Source of the DNA: a virus
Reading direction: 5' to 3' (one strand)
Length of the DNA stretch: 30,306 bases
IMG/VR virus record: IMGVR_UViG_3300042923_000513
Location: 1 to 30,306 of that record
Positions within the stretch are counted from its first letter, which is position 1, and each line of letters starts with the position of its first letter. Made by a program: the position numbers and the translations under genes. The notes below the pieces were generated by a model, which was not told the DNA's origin, made no database searches, and saw nothing but the letters and a program-made list of their open reading frames with translations. This document shows positions 14,826 through 21,605 of this stretch, one piece after another.

Positions 14826-15260
14826 ATGAAACGAGAATCAATAAAGGACATTGAATTGGCCGGCAGACGGTGGCGAATCAAAAAGTTCGACGCACTCACC
14901 GGCTCTTATATTTCATACAAACTCTTATCTCAGATGCTGCCGGGTGGAGTGGATAAGCAACTGGGCAACATGCCTGAAGGTAGGCAGGTAATGTGTAAGG
15001 AAGATTTTATTTCTCTGCAAAAAGATTGCCTGTCTGTCGTGTATGAGCTTAAAGAAGCTGGCGCAAATCAATTTCCTATGCAAATTATGATGCCGAATGG
15101 ATCTTGGGGCGTGGAAGGTTTAGACGATGATACCGCTACGGTATTGGCGCTGACTATCCATGCTCTAATTTTTAATGTGTCGGGTTTTTTCGACGGAAAC
15201 ACATTGAAGGAGTTGACCGGCAGCTTAACGGGCCTCAACTTTGTCGGTGTGAAAATCTAG
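14826..15260 (+). CDS. Tail assembly chaperone, short form (gpG-like)
   Basis: A 144-residue protein between the tube and tape measure genes, the usual slot of the tail assembly chaperone. It opens MKRESIKDIELAGRRWRIKK, continues with a helical domain, and reaches ATVLALTIHALIFNVSGFFD before its TAG at 15258-15260. Chaperones of this type coat the tape measure protein and recruit tube subunits. Near its end lies a TTTTTTC heptamer in the correct phase for a -1 frameshift, giving the long form described separately. AAGGAGA lies before ATG 14826. Confidence 0.8.
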   Translation: MKRESIKDIELAGRRWRIKKFDALTGSYISYKLLSQMLPGGVDKQLGNMPEGRQVMCKEDFISLQKDCLSVVYELKEAGANQFPMQIMMPNGSWGVEGLDDDTATVLALTIHALIFNVSGFFDGNTLKELTGSLTGLNFVGVKI

Positions 15261-15433
15261 ATGAATGGGCCTATGCGCCGGTTATTGCCGGATGCTGGCA
15301 ACAACACCAAGTATTTGATGGCACCTACTGCCTGGACGATCTTCTTGACTGGCATGAGTTTACCACTGTAAAGAACGAGAATAAGCGCCGATTTGAAGCA
15401 TGGGCAGAGAATAACCGGAAAGGAGGGATGTAA
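14826..15433 (+). CDS. Tail assembly chaperone, -1 frameshift long form (gpGT-like)
   Basis: A slip at T-TTT-TTC (15185-15191) would join the first 122 residues to 80 residues read in the -1 frame from 15191, ending at TAA 15431-15433 and giving a ~202-residue product. The -1 frame is open from 15176 (after TAA 15173-15175) to 15430. It contains no ATG, GTG or TTG before its penultimate codon position, so it cannot be a separate gene. Its protein looks genuine: DEWAYAPVIAGCWQQHQVFD, then GTYCLDDLLDWHEFTTV. The stop overlaps the tape measure ATG (TAATG). This matches the lambda G/GT principle. Confidence 0.82.
15185..15191 (+). promoter_or_regulatory. Programmed -1 ribosomal frameshift site (TTTTTTC)
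   Basis: The heptamer fits X-XXY-YYZ in the reading phase of the chaperone gene (G GGT TTT TTC becomes TTT TTT C). A possible stimulating hairpin follows: GTTGACCG at 15212-15219 can pair with CGG and TCAAC around 15229-15240. The hairpin is inferred by eye. Confidence 0.78.
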
Positions 15434-17415
15434 TGGGACTAGATATCATAAAAAGCTACTTAGTCGCACTTGGTTTTCAAGTCAATAACTCTGAATTTGA
15501 CAAAGCCAATAAAGCTGTTGACGATCTAGGGAAAACCGTTCAATCTGTAACTTCCGGAATGACCAGAAGCTTTGTCGGCGCTGCCGGTGCTATCGTTGGC
15601 GCTATTGCAGCAGTAACTACGGCAACCGCTGGCATGATTGATGCCGTGTCCAAGGCCGATCTGCAATATGAAAAGTTAGCTTTGCACATGTACACTACCA
15701 AACAAGTAGCCAAAGAGTTAAAAACTGTGTTGGATACCATGGGCGAAAGCATGGATGATGTTGCATGGATACCGGAGCTAAGACAGAAATACTTTGAACT
15801 GTTAGGACAGGCGCGGCAGATGGAAACACCTGCCGATGCCGCCGGGCAATTAAAGGATATCCGCAGTATCACTTTTGAATTTCAGCGCATGAAACTCGAA
15901 GCGACCTATGCTATGCAATGGATTGCTTACTATCTGACTAAATACCTATCAGGACCGTTAGGAAGCCTCAAAGGCGGCTTAAAAGGCTTTAACGATTGGA
16001 TTGTAAAAGAAATGCCGACATGGACTAATAAAGTCGCTCAATGGCTTGTTATGATTATTAATTTGGGCAAGGCGGGGATTAGGTTTGTCGGTGACTTCTA
16101 TTCCATGCTAAAAAGTGTGTTTGACATGCTGCCACAAGGAGTAAAGCTATTTGTATCGGCTATGGCTATCCTGGGGGCCGCAGTAATGACCGGTCCTTTC
16201 GGTTGGTTTGTATTGACGCTTGGAACAATTCTTATCCTATTAGAAGACTTCTATGGATACATGGAAGGACGGCGTTCGTCAAAGACTCTTGCGCCTATGT
16301 GGGATAAGTTAATCAGCCTTGGCGGCAGTATGAAGGAGTGGAAAGACAAGGTACTGCCGGACCTACTCAGAAGGATTAATGACCTTGTGTTGAGCCTGGG
16401 AGAGTTAAATGCCAACGGGTTAAAGACTACCTATACCTGGCTTAGCTCTATCATCGGGATATTGACTGACTCCATGAAGAAAAACGGGGTTTGGTATTCT
16501 TTCCAAGTGATGTTAAGCGACATTAGCGACTCTCTCAACAGTGTGTTTAAGGGGTTAATCAACATTGGCAAGCAGATGGATATTATCCCGAAGAATACAT
16601 CGTTTAAGACCTTTTGGCAATGGTTCGGTGATGAACTAGCCAGAGAGTTGAAAGTTCTATCTGCTTTTGGCCGGGCCGTGGCCGGGATTGTTGATATGAT
16701 TGGATTGGTTATGCAGGGAAACTATGCGGCAGCGGCGGCAAGAGGTGCCAGTATATTCCCTAATCTCAAAAGGGATTTAGCAAATTCGAGTGCAGGCGGT
16801 AATGGACATGGAACATCCTGGAGTTGGGGAGGGTCAGACGGCAGTGATATAAGCAAATTCATGGAAGCTATCGGACAGAAAGAAAGTGGCGGCAACTATG
16901 ATTCCCCAGAACACATGGATGCCGGGCATTGGAATAAAGGCGGTAAATATCAAATACTTGCTGAAAACTGGCCGCAATGGACGGTCGAGGCAGGGCTTCC
17001 TTCCAATGCTCCGTATACTGCTGAAAACCAGGAAATAGTCGCTAAAAACAAAATGCAGCAACTGTATCAACAGTACGGTGACTGGAGTTTAGTTGCTGCG
17101 GCTTGGAATGGTGGCGGCAGGGGAGTAGATAGTTATTCAAAGTATGGTCAAGATTCCTATATGAATGGCTATGTTTCATCTGTAATGGGTAATTTCCGGT
17201 CAAATGCTGCTTACGCGCAGCAACAAATGTCCGCTCCTTATGCGACAGGGGGCTCTAATTCCGTAAATGTAAATATAAGTGGCGGCGTTAATGTGCAGGT
17301 TATGCCTGGTGATGATCCACAAAAGTATTATGCGAAGACTATGCAAGCTTTGGAAGATAAATTTGGAATAAAAACTTCAATGGAAATAGCTGATATGAGA
17401 GGTGTTACGGGATGA
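15433..17415 (+). CDS. Tape measure protein with C-terminal lytic transglycosylase domain
   Basis: A 660-residue protein that sets tail length and is ejected first. The N-terminus (GLDIIKSYLVALGFQVNNSE) and long helical body are typical. Hydrophobic stretches lie at ~47-69 (FVGAAGAIVGAIAAVTTATA) and ~237-272 (LFVSAMAILGAAVMTGPFGW onwards), likely membrane-active. Residues ~470-585 form a soluble lytic transglycosylase/lysozyme-like domain: EAIGQKESGGNY with candidate catalytic E484, GKYQILAENWPQW, and VAAAWNGGGRG. This would open peptidoglycan for DNA entry. At 660 residues it is short, implying a short tail. The ATG overlaps the frameshift product's stop. Confidence 0.9.
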   Translation: MGLDIIKSYLVALGFQVNNSEFDKANKAVDDLGKTVQSVTSGMTRSFVGAAGAIVGAIAAVTTATAGMIDAVSKADLQYEKLALHMYTTKQVAKELKTVLDTMGESMDDVAWIPELRQKYFELLGQARQMETPADAAGQLKDIRSITFEFQRMKLEATYAMQWIAYYLTKYLSGPLGSLKGGLKGFNDWIVKEMPTWTNKVAQWLVMIINLGKAGIRFVGDFYSMLKSVFDMLPQGVKLFVSAMAILGAAVMTGPFGWFVLTLGTILILLEDFYGYMEGRRSSKTLAPMWDKLISLGGSMKEWKDKVLPDLLRRINDLVLSLGELNANGLKTTYTWLSSIIGILTDSMKKNGVWYSFQVMLSDISDSLNSVFKGLINIGKQMDIIPKNTSFKTFWQWFGDELARELKVLSAFGRAVAGIVDMIGLVMQGNYAAAAARGASIFPNLKRDLANSSAGGNGHGTSWSWGGSDGSDISKFMEAIGQKESGGNYDSPEHMDAGHWNKGGKYQILAENWPQWTVEAGLPSNAPYTAENQEIVAKNKMQQLYQQYGDWSLVAAAWNGGGRGVDSYSKYGQDSYMNGYVSSVMGNFRSNAAYAQQQMSAPYATGGSNSVNVNISGGVNVQVMPGDDPQKYYAKTMQALEDKFGIKTSMEIADMRGVTG

Positions 17416-18131
17416 ATATTTCAAACATATGGGCAGGGTACAATCTAATCCGAGTCCTAACAATGCAAAAGCAATATCCTAATATAATGCCTCTAAATGC
17501 TGTTCCTTGGCGACCTCCCGAGTGGAAAGGGTTGCCGTCAAGCGAAGAAGAATTCACCGGACAAAACGCCAATGGTACAAGTACTGGTAAACCCGTTGGA
17601 CAAATACTCTATCTTAAGACGAATATTGGCGGGTACTTCTTTGATGCCTTTTTGCGAGTGGAACACAGTTCAAGTTTAAAAATAACCAGCCATCCTGTAC
17701 AATCAGGAGCAAATATTTCCGATCACGCGTACATGGAACCGGTAACGCTAGTCATGGAAGTTGGTATGTCCGATGCCATGGATAGTTTAATACCAAATCA
17801 ATTTAAGGGGTTCGACACTAAATCAGTGACCGCGTACAATGTTTTAACCGACTTGCAAGAAAGCCGCGTACCCTTTGAGGTTCATACGCGGCTTAAACAT
17901 TACACGAATATGCTGATTGAAAACATCTCGACTGCTGATGATTTTAAAACTATGAACGGGTTACGGTGTACGGTGACAATGAAGCAAATTCTATTGGTGG
18001 ATGTGGCAAAAACTACTGTTAGTGCAAGAAACCAAGCAACAGGTTCTACTCAACAGGGAATTGTGCAGTCAACTCCGGTGCCGCCAACGATCGCTGCGCT
18101 AATCGAAGAAAGATATGGATCAATCGGTTAA
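17412..18131 (+). CDS. Dit-like baseplate protein
   Basis: A 239-residue protein overlapping the tape measure stop by four bases (ATGA). The segment FDAFLRVEHSSSLKITSHPV, then GANISDHAYMEPVTLVMEVG and YNVLTDLQESRVPFEVHTRL, leading to a beta domain with CTVTMKQILLVDV, is the pattern of the Dit-like N-terminal family in contractile baseplates, which joins the tube end to the hub. In related phages the plug and hub genes come next. Here a 3.1-kb island separates them. Its TAA overlaps by four bases the end of a gene on the other strand. Confidence 0.8.
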   Translation: MNISNIWAGYNLIRVLTMQKQYPNIMPLNAVPWRPPEWKGLPSSEEEFTGQNANGTSTGKPVGQILYLKTNIGGYFFDAFLRVEHSSSLKITSHPVQSGANISDHAYMEPVTLVMEVGMSDAMDSLIPNQFKGFDTKSVTAYNVLTDLQESRVPFEVHTRLKHYTNMLIENISTADDFKTMNGLRCTVTMKQILLVDVAKTTVSARNQATGSTQQGIVQSTPVPPTIAALIEERYGSIG

Positions 18132-18769
18132 TTATTAAATTTTTTATTCTTATAAGCCAGATCCTTTGAAAAATATAGATCTAAATCCATTTCACCGATC
18201 ATTCCGCTTGCCCCAAAGCTATAAGTAAATACTAGCCATGTCGGTTTTTTACCCGGAACATTTACCTGATACATTTTACGACCTTCACTAAAACCTTTGC
18301 TTTTGTCATCAATAATTTTAATCTCGTCCGCATGGAATATTGTTGAAAAATAACTATCAGGTGTAAATATCTTCATAGTTGGAAATGTGATAACACTTTT
18401 AACTAAATTAATATTTACGCAGGATATTCCGCGATCATAATAACGGCCAAGTAGAGAAATACCCCATTCCTGATTAGTTGTATATTTTTTTAATATTTTT
18501 AGTGGCTCATTATTTATAGTGACAACGGTTTTCCCTACGCGATATCCCACGTTGTTGTAAAATTGAACACCATCTGTCTCCCAAGCAATCGGGCTCTGCT
18601 CCGGAGATTCAGACAAAACATCCCAAGGAATAACATTTTTATCTGAAGTTTCGTTAATAGAGAGTTCCTTGATGAGATCGTATAGTTCTATAGTCTTGGG
18701 TTGTTCGGCAAAGCTTGTCCCGGTTACTAAAACCAGTAGCAAGCACACTAAAATAATGATCCTTCTCAC
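18128..18769 (-). CDS. Exported protein of unknown function (moron)
   Basis: A 213-residue protein on the opposite strand to the tail operon. The start is GTG 18769, seven bases after AAGGAG. It gives a clean signal peptide (VRRIIILVCLLLVLVTGTSFA, likely cleaved at SFA/EQ, so mature from about residue 22). In-frame codons further upstream lack a ribosome site. The mature part (~190 residues) is mixed beta with Trp/Tyr-rich strands (WETDGVQFYNNVGYRVGKTV, and KKPTWLVFTYSFGASGMIGE). No family recognised. A secreted product within a prophage late region suggests lysogenic conversion, i.e. expression in the dormant prophage. Confidence 0.72.
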   Translation of the reverse strand: MRRIIILVCLLLVLVTGTSFAEQPKTIELYDLIKELSINETSDKNVIPWDVLSESPEQSPIAWETDGVQFYNNVGYRVGKTVVTINNEPLKILKKYTTNQEWGISLLGRYYDRGISCVNINLVKSVITFPTMKIFTPDSYFSTIFHADEIKIIDDKSKGFSEGRKMYQVNVPGKKPTWLVFTYSFGASGMIGEMDLDLYFSKDLAYKNKKFNN

Positions 18770-18849
18770 GTTATCACTCCTTAATATCTTTTTAATATGA
18801 TTTTCAATAGTAAGACAATTTATTCCTGTAGAAAGGGAGGTGTACCAAT

Positions 18850-19224
18850 ATGAACTCTTTTTATCTAAGTAAAAAAAATCTGGAAGAAATGATTGATTCA
18901 AAGCAGTATGTAATTACCGGTGTACTCAAAACTGGTGAAATCACGGTTGCCGTTATAAGCCATGCTGAAAGAGATATACTCGATAAATTGCTGTTGTTAT
19001 ATTCAGAACCTGCCACGCCGTCAGAATGTGAAGATAAAGCGATTAGTTCGTTGTACAAATTATCGGAACTTCACGGCAATAACTCAAGAGAACTCGTAAA
19101 GGCTTGGGAGCAATTAGAAATTAATAAAAGAATTAATGATAAGTCTAAAATAGATTTTACATGGAAACCAGTTGAAGTATGTTCTAAAAACGGACTACAG
19201 ATTAAGAAATTTAGAGACTATTGA
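18850..19224 (+). CDS. Hypothetical protein in the accessory island
   Basis: A 124-residue protein divergent from the exported-protein gene across an 80-base AT-rich gap. AGGGAGG lies about nine bases before ATG 18850. It is helical and charged, with a central VISHAERDILDKLLLLYSEP segment; no signal peptide, membrane helix or catalytic motif is seen. The last 30 bases overlap tail-to-tail with the DUF2513 gene on the other strand. Function unknown. Confidence 0.6.
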   Translation: MNSFYLSKKNLEEMIDSKQYVITGVLKTGEITVAVISHAERDILDKLLLLYSEPATPSECEDKAISSLYKLSELHGNNSRELVKAWEQLEINKRINDKSKIDFTWKPVEVCSKNGLQIKKFRDY

Positions 19225-19542
19225 TGACGCGACATTTGCTATAACGTCAAGAGCGGCAGACCCTAAGGGTTTAATGGTCTCTTTAGTTCGATTCCATACA
19301 TCCTGGTTGCGAATGTTGTTTAAAAAAGCGTGTCCCTTCGGCGTTAAATCGAATATGTAGCCATCGTTAAAGATAATCAGGCTGGCATCAGCCAAGTAAG
19401 CAATATGATATTTTATTATAGAGTATTCATGATTAGGGTAACGCTTATCATGAACATAATCAACGGGATAATTACGGTTTCTGTCACAAATAGTTTCCAA
19501 TGTTAACAGTAAATCTCGGATTAAATCATAATCCAATTTCAC
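19195..19542 (-). CDS. DUF2513 protein (winged-helix-like)
   Basis: A 115-residue protein beginning MKLDYDLIRDLLLTLETICD with GTG start at 19542 and AAGGAGGGG upstream on the minus strand. The signature KYHIAYLADASLIIFNDGYI, then LTPKGHAFLNNIRNQDVWNR, matches DUF2513, a small family common on prophages and plasmids and predicted to fold as a winged helix. It may be a DNA-binding regulator, but no function is established that I know of. Full length for the family. It converges with the neighbouring plus-strand gene. Confidence 0.8.
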   Translation of the reverse strand: MKLDYDLIRDLLLTLETICDRNRNYPVDYVHDKRYPNHEYSIIKYHIAYLADASLIIFNDGYIFDLTPKGHAFLNNIRNQDVWNRTKETIKPLGSAALDVIANVASSIVSKFLNL

Positions 19543-19583
19543 TTACAACCCCTCCTTTTTTCTTGATATTCTTCGACAAAAGG

Positions 19584-19614
19584 AAACATTTACCTGTACA
19601 GCGATAAAATGTTT
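19584..19614. promoter_or_regulatory. Inverted repeat, candidate operator
   Basis: AAACATTT at 19584-19591 is mirrored exactly by AAATGTTT at 19607-19614, with the smaller palindrome CTGTACAG at 19594-19601 between them. The right arm touches the -35 of the following plus-strand promoter, so a repressor bound here could silence it. Inferred from symmetry. Confidence 0.4.
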
Positions 19615-19640
19615 TACAAACCGCATAAATAGGTTATAAT
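19613..19640 (+). promoter_or_regulatory. Sigma-70/A-type promoter
   Basis: TTTACA at 19613-19618, 16-base spacer, TATAAT at 19635-19640. Expected start near 19647. No plus-strand open frame follows for over 200 bases, so its likely product is an RNA antisense to the small peptide gene. Confidence 0.65.
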
Positions 19641-19648
19641 AAGCATAG

Positions 19649-19684
19649 AACTAAAGAACGCCCCTACTGCTAATAGGGGCGTTC
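19649..19684 (-). terminator. Terminator of the small-peptide gene
   Basis: Perfect 11-bp stem with 7-base loop (19656-19684), followed on the minus strand by TTTAGTT. It lies 16 bases past the peptide stop codon. Confidence 0.6.
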
Positions 19685-19699
19685 GATGGATACCGGAGG

Positions 19700-19789
19700 C
19701 TAACGGTACACTTCGCGGATAATCTGATAAATTATCCACAAAGCGCCGCTTGAAACGGTTAGTTGGAACCATTTCGTTCTCAAGCGCAT
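19700..19789 (-). CDS. 29-residue hydrophobic basic peptide, candidate type I toxin
   Basis: ATG 19789 follows GGGAGGT (19797-19803 on the minus strand) with seven bases between, and the frame ends at TAG 19700-19702. The peptide starts MRLRTKWFQL, has a hydrophobic stretch at residues ~8-24 centred on ALWIIYQII, and ends REVYR, so basic ends flank a likely membrane segment. It has its own extended -10 promoter, a leader hairpin and a terminator, and an oppositely directed promoter fires across it. This architecture is that of type I toxins such as TxpA or BsrG. No sequence family is recognised; toxicity is inference. Confidence 0.55.
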   Translation of the reverse strand: MRLRTKWFQLTVSSGALWIIYQIIREVYR

Positions 19790-19814
19790 AACATTCACCT
19801 CCCGTATTCAGTTT

Positions 19815-19837
19815 GGAGCAGGCTGCAATCCTGCTCC
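19815..19837 (-). other. Leader hairpin at the 5' end of the small-peptide mRNA
   Basis: Perfect 8-bp stem GGAGCAGG/CCTGCTCC with a 7-base loop, starting at or within a base or two of the predicted transcription start. A stem at the very 5' end commonly protects toxin mRNAs from decay. As a palindrome it would also form in the antisense RNA. Confidence 0.5.
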
Positions 19838-19843
19838 TTCCAT

Positions 19844-19852
19844 ATTATAGCA
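19844..19852 (-). promoter_or_regulatory. Extended -10 promoter of the small-peptide gene
   Basis: TGCTATAAT on the minus strand is a perfect extended -10 element; no -35 is evident. Expected start near 19837, just at the leader hairpin. Confidence 0.6.
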
Positions 19853-19855
19853 TAG

Positions 19856-19879
19856 CCGTCCTTTATAGGGCGGTTTTTT
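19856..19879 (+). terminator. Rho-independent terminator
   Basis: CCGTCC/GGGCGG 6-bp stem (one G-U) with loop TTTATA, followed by six T. It would end the plus-strand antisense transcript. Confidence 0.7.
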
Positions 19880-19880
19880 C

Positions 19881-20010
19881 ATGCCTCGAAAATCTCATAG
19901 CGACTTCCAATTATTTTTGGATAAAAGTAAAAATAGCCCTTGAAGGTAAGACCCTTAAGGACTATGTTATCGAGCTTATAAAGGCAGACCTGGAAAAGTC
20001 CCAAAAGTAA
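19881..20010 (+). pseudogene. Frameshifted ribbon-helix-helix-like fragment
   Basis: The frame from ATG 19881 (MPRKSHSDFQLFLDKSK) stops at TGA 19941-19943, while the overlapping +1 frame carries IALEGKTLKDYVIELIKADL and ends at TAA 20008-20010. That second part is the helix-turn-helix half of an Arc/MetJ-type antitoxin or repressor. Removing one A from the A-rich run near 19926-19936 joins the two into a 42-residue protein. It may be a decayed antitoxin, a sequencing slip or a shifted gene. The first helix looks shorter than usual, so more may have been lost. A TTG-started reading from 19813 gives an unlikely N-terminus. Confidence 0.4.
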
Positions 20011-20080
20011 AAGGAAGCCCGCATCAAGTTTGGCCACCTGACGGACTTCCTAACCGCAAACCTCAGAAGAGGCTTACATG
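20005..20080 (-). ncRNA. Possible short minus-strand RNA with terminator
   Basis: Another TGCTATAAT extended -10 reads leftward at 20087-20095. About 65 bases downstream is a hairpin GGAAG-CCG/CGG-CTTCC (20013-20050, one mismatch, large loop) followed on the minus strand by TTTTACTTTT. No ribosome site or convincing ORF lies between, so a small RNA of 70-80 bases is possible. Weak evidence. Confidence 0.3.
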
Positions 20081-20120
20081 CCATGATTATAGCATGTTTT
20101 AGCCTCTATCTGCAAGGTTT
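20058..20120. repeat. Three-part inverted repeat around a -10 box
   Basis: Nested arms AAACCT/AGGTTT (20058, 20115), AGAGGCT/AGCCTCT (20068, 20101) and CATGC/GCATG (20077, 20092) surround the TGCTATAAT box. It could be an operator, or on a plus-strand transcript a long hairpin before the two small genes that follow. Confidence 0.5.
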
Positions 20121-20141
20121 AGCACGGATAGGAGTATTTTT

Positions 20142-20252
20142 ATGTCCAAAAAAGTTCAAGAAGTAGACATGGATCTCGTTAAAATAGTTGCCCGTATGTG
20201 GTTACAAGTGGTTATAGAAGAAATGGAAGAGAATGGGGAGGTTAAATCATGA
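20142..20252 (+). CDS. 36-residue helical protein
   Basis: ATG 20142 has ATAGGAG seven bases upstream. The product MSKKVQEVDMDLVKIVARMW, then LQVVIEEMEENGEVKS, reads as a single amphipathic helix. Its TGA overlaps the next ATG (ATGA), so the pair is coupled. Function unknown; proteins like this can be small regulators of a neighbouring repressor or antirepressor. Confidence 0.5.
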   Translation: MSKKVQEVDMDLVKIVARMWLQVVIEEMEENGEVKS

Positions 20253-20380
20253 TTGATGTCCCTAAAAATGTTTTAGATATATCCCCGTCAGACTTAACTG
20301 ATGAGCAAATGGATAATATCGTAATTATTGTCCATAGTGTTTTAGCTGAATACATTAATGAAATAGGATTAAATATTTAG
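20249..20380 (+). CDS. 43-residue protein of unknown function
   Basis: It starts inside the previous stop (ATGA) with GGGGAGG eight bases upstream and ends one base before an ATG in the antirepressor leader. The sequence MIDVPKNVLDISPSDLTDEQ, then MDNIVIIVHSVLAEYINEIG, is acidic and helical with no known motif. The tight chain of overlaps (20142, 20249, 20399) suggests one small operon expressed with the antirepressor. Confidence 0.5.
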   Translation: MIDVPKNVLDISPSDLTDEQMDNIVIIVHSVLAEYINEIGLNI

Positions 20381-20398
20381 ATGAGTGGAGGGAAGCAA

Positions 20399-21205
20399 AT
20401 GAGTGATTTAACTAAAATATTTAACTACAATGGGAAACAGGTCAGAACGGTGCAGTTGCCCAATAGTAAAATCGGTTTTGTTGCAAAGGACGTTTGCGAG
20501 TCTCTTGATATTGTATGGAAGGGCAGTCAGGTTTTAGCTAACATTAAGGACGCTCACAAGGGGGTAACGCGATTAGTTACCCCCGGTGGAGATCAAGAAA
20601 TTTGGTATGTAGATGAGCCAGGTCTATACAAACTTGTCTCTCGCAGTAATAAAGAAGAGGCCGAAAAATTTCAAGACTGGATTTACGAGGATGTACTGCC
20701 GGCCATTCGTAAACATGGCATGTACGCCACAGACGATTTACTGAATGATCCTGATCTGGCAATTAAGGCATTCACTGCCCTTAAGGAAGAACGGGCCCGG
20801 AATCAACAATTGGCACTTGAAAATGCCCAGAAAACTCAAATAATCCATGAGCTTCAACCAAAGGCTACATACTACGATTTTATTTTGCAAACTAAAGCTG
20901 CTATATCAGTAAATCAAATTGCAAAAGACTATGGAATGTCTGCAAGGCAATTAAATAACCTGTTACATGATTTTAAAGTACAATATAAAGAAGGGGGAAT
21001 ATGGTTATTGTATCGAGACCATGCGCCAATGGGGTATACTTCATCCAAAACCCATAATTACACTAACAGCAGGAACGAGCAATGCAGTAAGCTTCATACC
21101 TATTGGACACAAAAAGGCCGACTGTTTATCTATGACCTGCTAAAACAGCACAGTATTCTTCCGATGATTGAGCGCGAAGGGTTAAGATTGGTTTCAAATA
21201 AATAG
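20399..21205 (+). CDS. Phage antirepressor, BRO-N plus KilAC domains
   Basis: 268 residues from ATG 20399, which has GGAGG seven bases upstream; the in-frame ATG 20381 lacks a site. Residues ~8-105 are a BRO-N domain (FVAKDVCESLDI, EIWYVDEPGLYKLVSRSNKE, FQDWIYEDVLPAIRKHGMY). Residues ~140-255 are a KilAC domain (SVNQIAKDYGMSARQLNNLL, THNYTNSRNEQ, FIYDLLKQHSIL). Such proteins bind DNA and counter phage repressors in induction. Finding one amid baseplate genes is unusual; it may regulate a co-resident element or this phage's own repressor. A terminator follows. Confidence 0.88.
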   Translation: MSDLTKIFNYNGKQVRTVQLPNSKIGFVAKDVCESLDIVWKGSQVLANIKDAHKGVTRLVTPGGDQEIWYVDEPGLYKLVSRSNKEEAEKFQDWIYEDVLPAIRKHGMYATDDLLNDPDLAIKAFTALKEERARNQQLALENAQKTQIIHELQPKATYYDFILQTKAAISVNQIAKDYGMSARQLNNLLHDFKVQYKEGGIWLLYRDHAPMGYTSSKTHNYTNSRNEQCSKLHTYWTQKGRLFIYDLLKQHSILPMIEREGLRLVSNK

Positions 21206-21214
21206 TGATGGTCC

Positions 21215-21239
21215 AAGAGAGGCTAACAACCTCTCTTTT
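21215..21239 (+). terminator. Rho-independent terminator closing the island
   Basis: Perfect 8-bp stem AAGAGAGG/CCTCTCTT with 7-base loop and a TTTTC tail, just after the antirepressor. It insulates the resumed baseplate operon. Confidence 0.75.
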
Positions 21240-21257
21240 CTTGTGCCACGAAAGGAG

Positions 21258-21605
21258 GTGATAAAAATCAGCACACAGATTATTCCTTTAACGCCGGACC
21301 CCTATCAAAAAATGCAAACCGTAGTAAACATTGATAATCAAAATTTAACTCTAAACGTTACCTTAAATTATAACGAGATAGCCGGTTATTGGGTATTGGG
21401 AATAGCGGATTCGGCAGGAAACGTATTACTTAGCTCAATACCGGTAGTTACCGGTAAAGTACCCTCCGGAAACTTACTAGAACAATATTCCTATCTCAAT
21501 ATTGGTAGTTGGATTGTGGTAAAAACAAGCAGTATTAGCATGGATTATCCCGATGATAAGAACCTTGGAACGGACTTTGTTTTAATAGTGAGTGATACAT
21601 TATGA
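21258..21605 (+). CDS. Baseplate plug protein (cyanophage Pam3 gp18-like)
   Basis: About 115 residues. STQIIPLTPDPYQKMQTVVN, then LTLNVTLNYNEIAGYWVLGI, followed by ADSAGNVLLSSIPVVTGK and a closing DDKNLGTDFVLIVSDTL match a small beta-protein family that plugs the centre of simple myovirus baseplates. It lies just before the hub gene, as expected. GTG 21258 lies inside the ribosome site AAAGGAGGTGAT (21251-21262). The codon at ideal spacing is ATC 21267, as with the ATA of the DUF2213 gene, so a non-standard start is possible. A GTG at 21243 has no site. Confidence 0.75.
   Translation: MIKISTQIIPLTPDPYQKMQTVVNIDNQNLTLNVTLNYNEIAGYWVLGIADSAGNVLLSSIPVVTGKVPSGNLLEQYSYLNIGSWIVVKTSSISMDYPDDKNLGTDFVLIVSDTL

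Follow-up and report, generated by a model that had tools for sequence, protein, structure and literature searches.

Is a 29-codon gene in the tail cluster of a phage the toxin gene of an RNA-controlled (type I) toxin-antitoxin module, and, if so, does it belong to a family already described? The gene came to light only through reading of the raw sequence of a virus record, IMGVR_UViG_3300042923_000513 of IMG/VR, which was analyzed in its entirety (30,306 bases; referred to below as the window). From the parts of the locus, their conservation, the predicted RNA folds, and the selection acting on the peptide, we consider it probable that the locus is a phage-carried type I module of a new sequence family, with a candidate toxin and a candidate antitoxin. 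The basis for this reading is sequence and its comparison, and both transcripts are predicted ones.

Genomic setting of the peptide locus

The open reading frames (ORFs) of the window lie mainly on the plus strand and include those for a terminase and a DUF3383-family protein. Within the tail cluster, the genes for a Dit-like protein (17412 to 18131) and a baseplate plug protein (Pam3_gp18; 21243 to 21605) are separated by approximately 3.1 kb of accessory sequence (18128 to 21242), which contains a 257-amino-acid minus-strand ORF, a 124-amino-acid ORF, a minus-strand DUF2513 gene, the peptide locus, and a BRO/KilAC antirepressor-like gene. The 257-amino-acid product has a hydrophobic stretch at its N terminus. 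In a related record (L004), whose DUF3383 protein is 62% identical to that of the window, the homologs of the Dit-like and baseplate plug genes (46% and 52% identical; 15002 to 15685 and 15704 to 16045) are 18 bases apart, and the accessory block is missing from this matching junction. Thus, the accessory stretch represents either an insertion in the lineage of the window or a loss in that of L004.

Predicted elements of the peptide mRNA and the antisense RNA

The candidate toxin, MRLRTKWFQLTVSSGALWIIYQIIREVYR, is encoded on the minus strand by a 29-codon ORF at 19700 to 19789. An extended −10 element, TGCTATAAT (19845 to 19853), precedes it; no recognizable −35 was seen by eye, and the promoter scan did not list the element. 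At the predicted mRNA start is a perfect 8-bp hairpin (19815 to 19822 paired with 19830 to 19837), followed by a Shine-Dalgarno (SD) sequence, GGAGG (19798 to 19802), located 8 nt 5′ of the ATG at 19789. Immediately 3′ of the stop codon is an anti-SD arm, CCTCCGGTATCC (19688 to 19699), predicted to form a long-range helix with the 5′ arm GAATACGGGAGG (19798 to 19809) that buries the SD. A terminator hairpin of 11 perfect pairs (19656 to 19666 with 19674 to 19684) comes next and is followed by TTTAGTTCT, a modest T-run. Taking its ends from this promoter and terminator, the peptide mRNA is predicted to be ∼190 nt long (about 19840 to 19650, minus strand). The original prediction had named the extended −10, the 5′ hairpin, the ribosome site, the 29-residue frame, and the 11-bp terminator on this strand, and all are present in the sequence, as is the opposing promoter that it described.

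That promoter, TTTACA-16-TATAAT (plus strand, 19613 to 19640), agrees with the consensus at 11 of 12 positions and faces its own terminator, a hairpin at 19854 to 19875 that reaches 19878 with its T-run. The promoter was the best of six promoter-like matches in 1.5 kb; since shuffled sequences yielded a similar number (4.9 ± 2.6), a single match is in itself unremarkable. Terminator-like matches numbered three in the scanned region versus 1.1 ± 1.1 in shuffles. With its ends placed from these elements, the candidate antitoxin RNA would extend from 19647 to 19878 on the plus strand and span the entire peptide mRNA, and the predicted overlap of ∼190 nt, the full mRNA length, agrees with the complementarity of roughly 190 bases expected at the outset. 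Just past the antisense terminator, at 19881 to 20010, are two plus-strand frames, possibly one decayed gene, which we take to resemble pieces of a single small ribbon-helix-helix type DNA-binding protein.

Homologous loci in two other phages

Viral contigs were scanned with a DNA pattern for the peptide core (53 stretches) and, independently, with a promoter-SD-ATG pattern (6 stretches). Exactly one locus, L088, was common to both scans, and the peptide-core scan additionally yielded L077; because the scans demand exact matches, these two IMG/VR homologs are a lower bound. The L088 and L077 peptides, MRFKTKWFKISVSSGFLWMIYLIIQELRR and MHLKTKWFTLTVSSGALWVIYQIIHEATK, are 62% and 72% identical, respectively, to the window peptide, and all three are 29 residues long and align without gaps, with 16 of the 29 positions invariant. 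The 29-codon frame, extended −10, 5′ hairpin, SD, anti-SD, terminator hairpin, and opposing promoter are common to the three loci. The 9-mer of the extended −10 is the same in each, and GGAGGTGA is kept at the SD in each. Measured from its end, the −10 lies 55 to 56 bases ahead of the ATG, and the end of the terminator hairpin lies 16 to 19 bases from that of the antisense −10. The antisense promoter reads TTTACA-16-TATAAT in L088 and TTTAAA-16-TATAAT, with a weaker −35, in L077, followed by CATAG in the same register. The comparative search suggested by the original prediction recovered the peptide together with its hairpins, and the 29-codon frame is intact in both homologs, the opposite of the broken frame beside surviving hairpins that had been regarded as counterevidence.

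On the antisense strand of L077, the 5′ hairpin precedes TTTCC, and this copy of it scored as a terminator; transcription of the antisense RNA may thus stop near the mRNA start, at ∼190 nt, and not at a terminator farther on. Antisense-side hairpins with a flanking T-run were also seen by eye upstream of the peptide promoter, adjoining it in L088 and ∼55 to 85 nt from it in L077; neither was flagged by the scan.

Outside this shared unit, conservation was not found for a palindrome at 19584 to 19614 (8-bp arms, 15-nt spacing) that touches the antisense −35 and had been proposed to regulate the antisense promoter. The palindrome exists and adjoins that promoter, and arms of 8 bp were reached in 5/500 mononucleotide shuffles, but L077 has a different 8-bp repeat (0/500 shuffles) ending 8 nt 5′ of the antisense −35, and L088 has no inverted repeat above 6 bp there (61/500 shuffles). 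The palindrome could be an operator for DUF2513 or for the antisense promoter; a role as a regulator is unsupported.

In L077 and L088, the unit is located between the end of a presumed tape measure gene, so named from its position and likeness, and a pair of homologous genes (64% identical). Neither the presumed tape measure gene nor the gene pair has a Pfam match, and we presume that these flanking genes are tail genes. A 163-amino-acid ORF beside the peptide locus of L077 (490 to 981) has a signal-peptide-like start and no Pfam match.

This context bears on the possibility that the peptide is a leader peptide or attenuator of the DUF2513 gene of the window (19542 to 19195), which lies on the same strand, 3′ of the peptide ORF, with 157 nt and a terminator between the two ORFs. 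Such a role is very unlikely. In both L088 and L077, the unit is kept even though the next substantial downstream gene is on the opposite strand, and the sole same-strand ORF (921 to 1112 of L077) is a mechanically called frame of 63 codons that overlaps both the opposite gene, at the end of that gene, and the terminator. Neither homolog thus has a convincing co-directional downstream gene, and DUF2513 has a good ribosome site of its own, as judged by eye.

Predicted folding and burial of the ribosome site

The predicted mRNA folds have energies of −91.3 (window), −86.1 (L088), and −97.4 (L077) kcal/mol, corresponding to z scores of −8.97, −7.98, and −10.87, and in each case none of 200 shuffles was equally low. 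In every predicted fold, the SD and the bases preceding it are paired with the stretch immediately 3′ of the stop codon, and the probability that the SD is unpaired in the full-length RNA is 0.00 in the window, 0.20 in L088, and 0.00 in L077. The start codon is unpaired with a probability of 0.67 to 0.99 in the three full-length folds. When growing transcripts were folded, the SD was unpaired at 0.23 to 0.82 (window) and 0.51 to 0.81 (L077) before the anti-SD and at ≤0.06 after it. In L088, the SD is unpaired at 0.20 to 0.38 from 55 bases on, owing to nearer partners, and at 0.20 in the final transcript; because it is largely paired before the anti-SD is made, no switch is visible in this locus.

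The 5′ hairpin has 8/8 pairs in each of the three sequences, and five of the eight positions differ on both sides. Since the shorter loop of L088 is misaligned by MAFFT, the arms were positioned manually; as placed, the changes are compensatory. In the consensus structure from the uncorrected alignment, 90.7% of cells are paired and 13 pairs show two-sided change. On four of five measures, none of 500 shuffles was as good, and slid versions were 38 to 48% paired; on the fifth covariation measure, that of further pair types, the alignment was no better than shuffles (136/500 as good). Because there are only three sequences and the structure comes from the very alignment being tested, these controls lend support but are not proof, and covariation says little about the SD/anti-SD helix, which is mostly invariant.

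Could promoter-like and hairpin sequences simply have piled up by chance in an AT-rich spacer? The abundance of single consensus matches noted above would be in keeping with this explanation, which is nevertheless hardly credible, as the whole arrangement is conserved in two other phages with compensatory changes. The fold z score in the window and the core elements kept at the two homologous loci indicate that the locus is more than chance, and a conserved RNA-controlled peptide locus appears to be real.

Selection on the peptide and its chemistry

Among the three peptide genes, a small sample, dN is 0.20 to 0.28 and dS is 0.80 to 1.84, giving a dN/dS of about 0.15 to 0.25, and third codon positions vary most (14/28, 10/21, and 11/26 differences in the three pairs). 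The peptide is under purifying selection. Compared with random synonymous recodings, the real frames fold better, with z scores of −4.8 (window), −2.6 (L088), and −4.0 (L077); recodings as low as the real frame numbered 0/300, 4/300, and 0/300, respectively. Together with the dN/dS, these worse-folding recodings suggest that the frame is selected for both the peptide and the mRNA fold.

The same data bear on whether the functional product is the plus-strand RNA, acting in trans as a structured phage small RNA, with the ORF being incidental. The good promoter and strong predicted fold of the antisense RNA (z = −5.73 in the window) are what such an RNA would have. However, the frame is exactly 29 codons in all three loci, its substitutions show the third-position excess and low dN/dS given above, and in the window the mRNA fold is stronger than the antisense fold (−8.97 versus −5.73), so we regard this explanation as very improbable.

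The three peptides carry a net charge of +2 to +5. Their GRAVY values are 0.14 to 0.30, and their best 19-residue Kyte-Doolittle means are 0.95 to 1.26. These values are low for a toxin that spans the membrane; typical membrane toxins are more hydrophobic than this peptide. This low overall hydrophobicity, and the position of the window locus among accessory genes of a tail cluster, could also be accommodated by a small membrane-active phage peptide that serves superinfection exclusion, lysis timing, or host modulation and is controlled by antisense RNA and SD sequestration without being addictive, given that the anatomy of the locus reveals how expression is controlled and not what the peptide does. 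Against such a peptide, a nontranslatable primary transcript with a sequestered SD has been described as a major hallmark of loci for type I toxins (PMC6733600), and here it is combined with a predicted full-length antisense RNA. We therefore consider the nonaddictive peptide improbable, though less so than the other alternatives, and favor a type I module.

Searches for related peptides and RNAs

Pfam, NCBIfam, and PHROGs include models of the TxpA/BsrG, Fst/Ldr, and Hok families, and solved AapA entries are present in the PDB sequence set. At E values of up to 10, none of the three peptides matched a Pfam or NCBIfam family, these toxin families included, and the three-peptide profile matched nothing in the PDB sequence set; PHROGs gave no match for the window peptide, again including those families. 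The original prediction had seen no resemblance to a recognized peptide, and this toxin-like family is recognized by no family library searched. Nor was there a match for the three peptides in 50,697 phage records or for the window and L088 peptides in 72,556 plasmids (the window peptide by tblastn in both), and the family therefore looks rare in those collections. No account of the peptide locus was found in the titles and abstracts of the openly accessible literature.

Other candidates from the pattern scans were rejected. A first exact peptide pattern had no match, and the two stretches found with a C-terminal pattern (L035 and L036) were both rejected by eye, on the grounds of a reading inside another frame and of a missing ribosome site. 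The remaining 51 of the 53 peptide-core stretches were judged, on the basis of their stop-to-stop frames and BLAST scores, to be readings that arose by chance; L071 (E = 0.003; 54.5% identity across 22 residues) and L072 (E = 0.02) came closest. The L072 record also appeared in the profile search, with a 16-position match (E = 6e−4) that lies within an open frame of 52 codons. Among the promoter-SD-ATG stretches, L096 and L097 look by eye like helix-turn-helix regulator genes, and L093 to L095 like unrelated frames.

The three-peptide profile matched 5 of 18 records at E ≤ 10, of which only L077 and L088 were deemed credible. In 100 genomes from the phylum to which G001 belongs, sampled via L003 (a metagenome bin), the sole genome-contig match to a neighboring gene, it gave six weak matches at E ≤ 0.1, the best of them at E = 0.008. 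When 50 sources (the window plus 49 loci out of 109) were searched with a covariance model of the mRNA, 10 matches were obtained at E ≤ 10: the three known mRNAs (178 to 202 bits), six smaller or opposite-strand matches in the same loci, and L045 (E = 0.38). The peptide and the fold together provide a search model for further such loci. In Rfam, no match reached its gathering score; RefA9 (RF02844, an Enterococcus antisense small RNA) scored 31.8 bits at 19623 to 19685 of the window, below its gathering score of 49, with the similarity strongest in the terminator-hairpin part, and neither L077 nor L088 matched it at E up to 1.

Comparison with known type I systems

At the level of sequence and prediction, the locus has the layout features of type I systems, namely, a small selected peptide, an antisense promoter, and a sequestered SD. 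The original prediction had compared this layout with TxpA/RatA and BsrG/SR4; the type I layout itself is borne out by the elements kept in L077 and L088, but the closest models are AapA/IsoA and hok. AapA peptides, at ∼30 residues, are similar in length to the window peptide. Hok is longer than 29 residues, and the hok mRNA carries the mok frame and has its antisense RNA placed differently. The txpA and RatA RNAs overlap only partially.

In aapA/IsoA of Helicobacter, a 5′-3′ long-distance interaction keeps the stable primary transcript from being translated until its 3′ end is trimmed, and the antisense RNA overlaps this transcript in cis; the final hok mRNA is so stable that processing of its 3′ end is needed (PMC6733600). 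The window locus resembles AapA/IsoA in the predicted burial of the SD by a far-downstream anti-SD and in its cis-overlapping antisense RNA; it differs in having no peptide match in the family and PDB searches, in being phage borne, and in a predicted antisense RNA that covers the whole mRNA. It shares with hokW-sokW, which is located in a prophage and helps phage release (PMC8621323), the presence of a type I-like unit in a phage, but, unlike Hok, its three peptides lack a Pfam or NCBIfam match.

Phage-borne peptide genes with an antisense RNA also include TxpA/RatA and YonT/SR6 of Bacillus subtilis prophages (PMC3531473, PMC5848175), from which the present peptides are set apart by the family scans. 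There, RNase III cleaves the duplex that txpA mRNA forms with RatA, and silencing depends on this enzyme (PMC3531473), and the YonT/SR6 RNAs overlap only in part (PMC5848175). In Clostridioides difficile, type I modules consist, as predicted for the present locus, of convergent, overlapping small toxin and antisense RNAs, several of them in prophages (PMC6563280, PMC7699646), where they aid prophage maintenance (PMC7699646). The described toxins are 34 to 59 residues long (homologs, 30 to 56), have a hydrophobic N terminus and a lysine-rich C terminus, and are encoded at prophage extremities (PMC6563280, PMC7699646); by these descriptions, the window locus differs from them. According to a 2025 report, prediction of type I loci is difficult, and before its cyanobacterial case they had been known only from Proteobacteria, Firmicutes, and Tenericutes (PMC12390103).

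The locus is not categorically new. Its predicted fold suggests that it works like AapA/IsoA and hok, sharing the deeply locked mRNA design described for Helicobacter aapA and for hok, although the searches do not support membership by sequence in either. Since the same design is kept in two other phages, it very probably represents a new family of RNA-controlled toxin-antitoxin loci.

A model for control of the candidate toxin

Under the proposed model, the minus-strand mRNA would encode a basic amphipathic or membrane-seeking peptide of 29 residues, and the finished mRNA, closed by hairpins at both ends, would probably be stable. Because the SD is buried by the stretch 3′ of the stop codon, the primary transcript should be inert, and translation would have to await slow trimming of the 3′ part or some other event that opens the fold. 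The antisense RNA, made from its near-consensus promoter and complementary to the whole mRNA, would allow the mRNA to be removed as a duplex, presumably by RNase III as in known systems. A stable mRNA and a labile antisense RNA would then lead to the death or growth arrest of cells from which the prophage has been lost, a step in which half-lives, toxicity, and prophage maintenance are all assumed.

In all three phages, the peptide gene is oriented opposite to the phage genes on either side (those of the tail in the window and presumed tail genes in L077 and L088), so the antisense RNA is co-directional with them. Late transcription would consequently add antitoxin and overrun the toxin promoter, and the orientation shared by the three phages suggests a link between late transcription and antitoxin supply; that late transcription feeds the antisense RNA is a guess. 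A more speculative extension, which we think doubtful although not far-fetched, is that this new type I family is wired to the lytic cycle, with the toxin silent during phage replication and acting after prophage loss or after shutdown of host transcription by another phage. The L077 record carries an S24-type repressor, and that phage is therefore probably temperate. Beside this repressor, near the end of the record, is a gene for an Mrr-type restriction endonuclease domain protein (L110, 100 to 1821), a possible defense gene.
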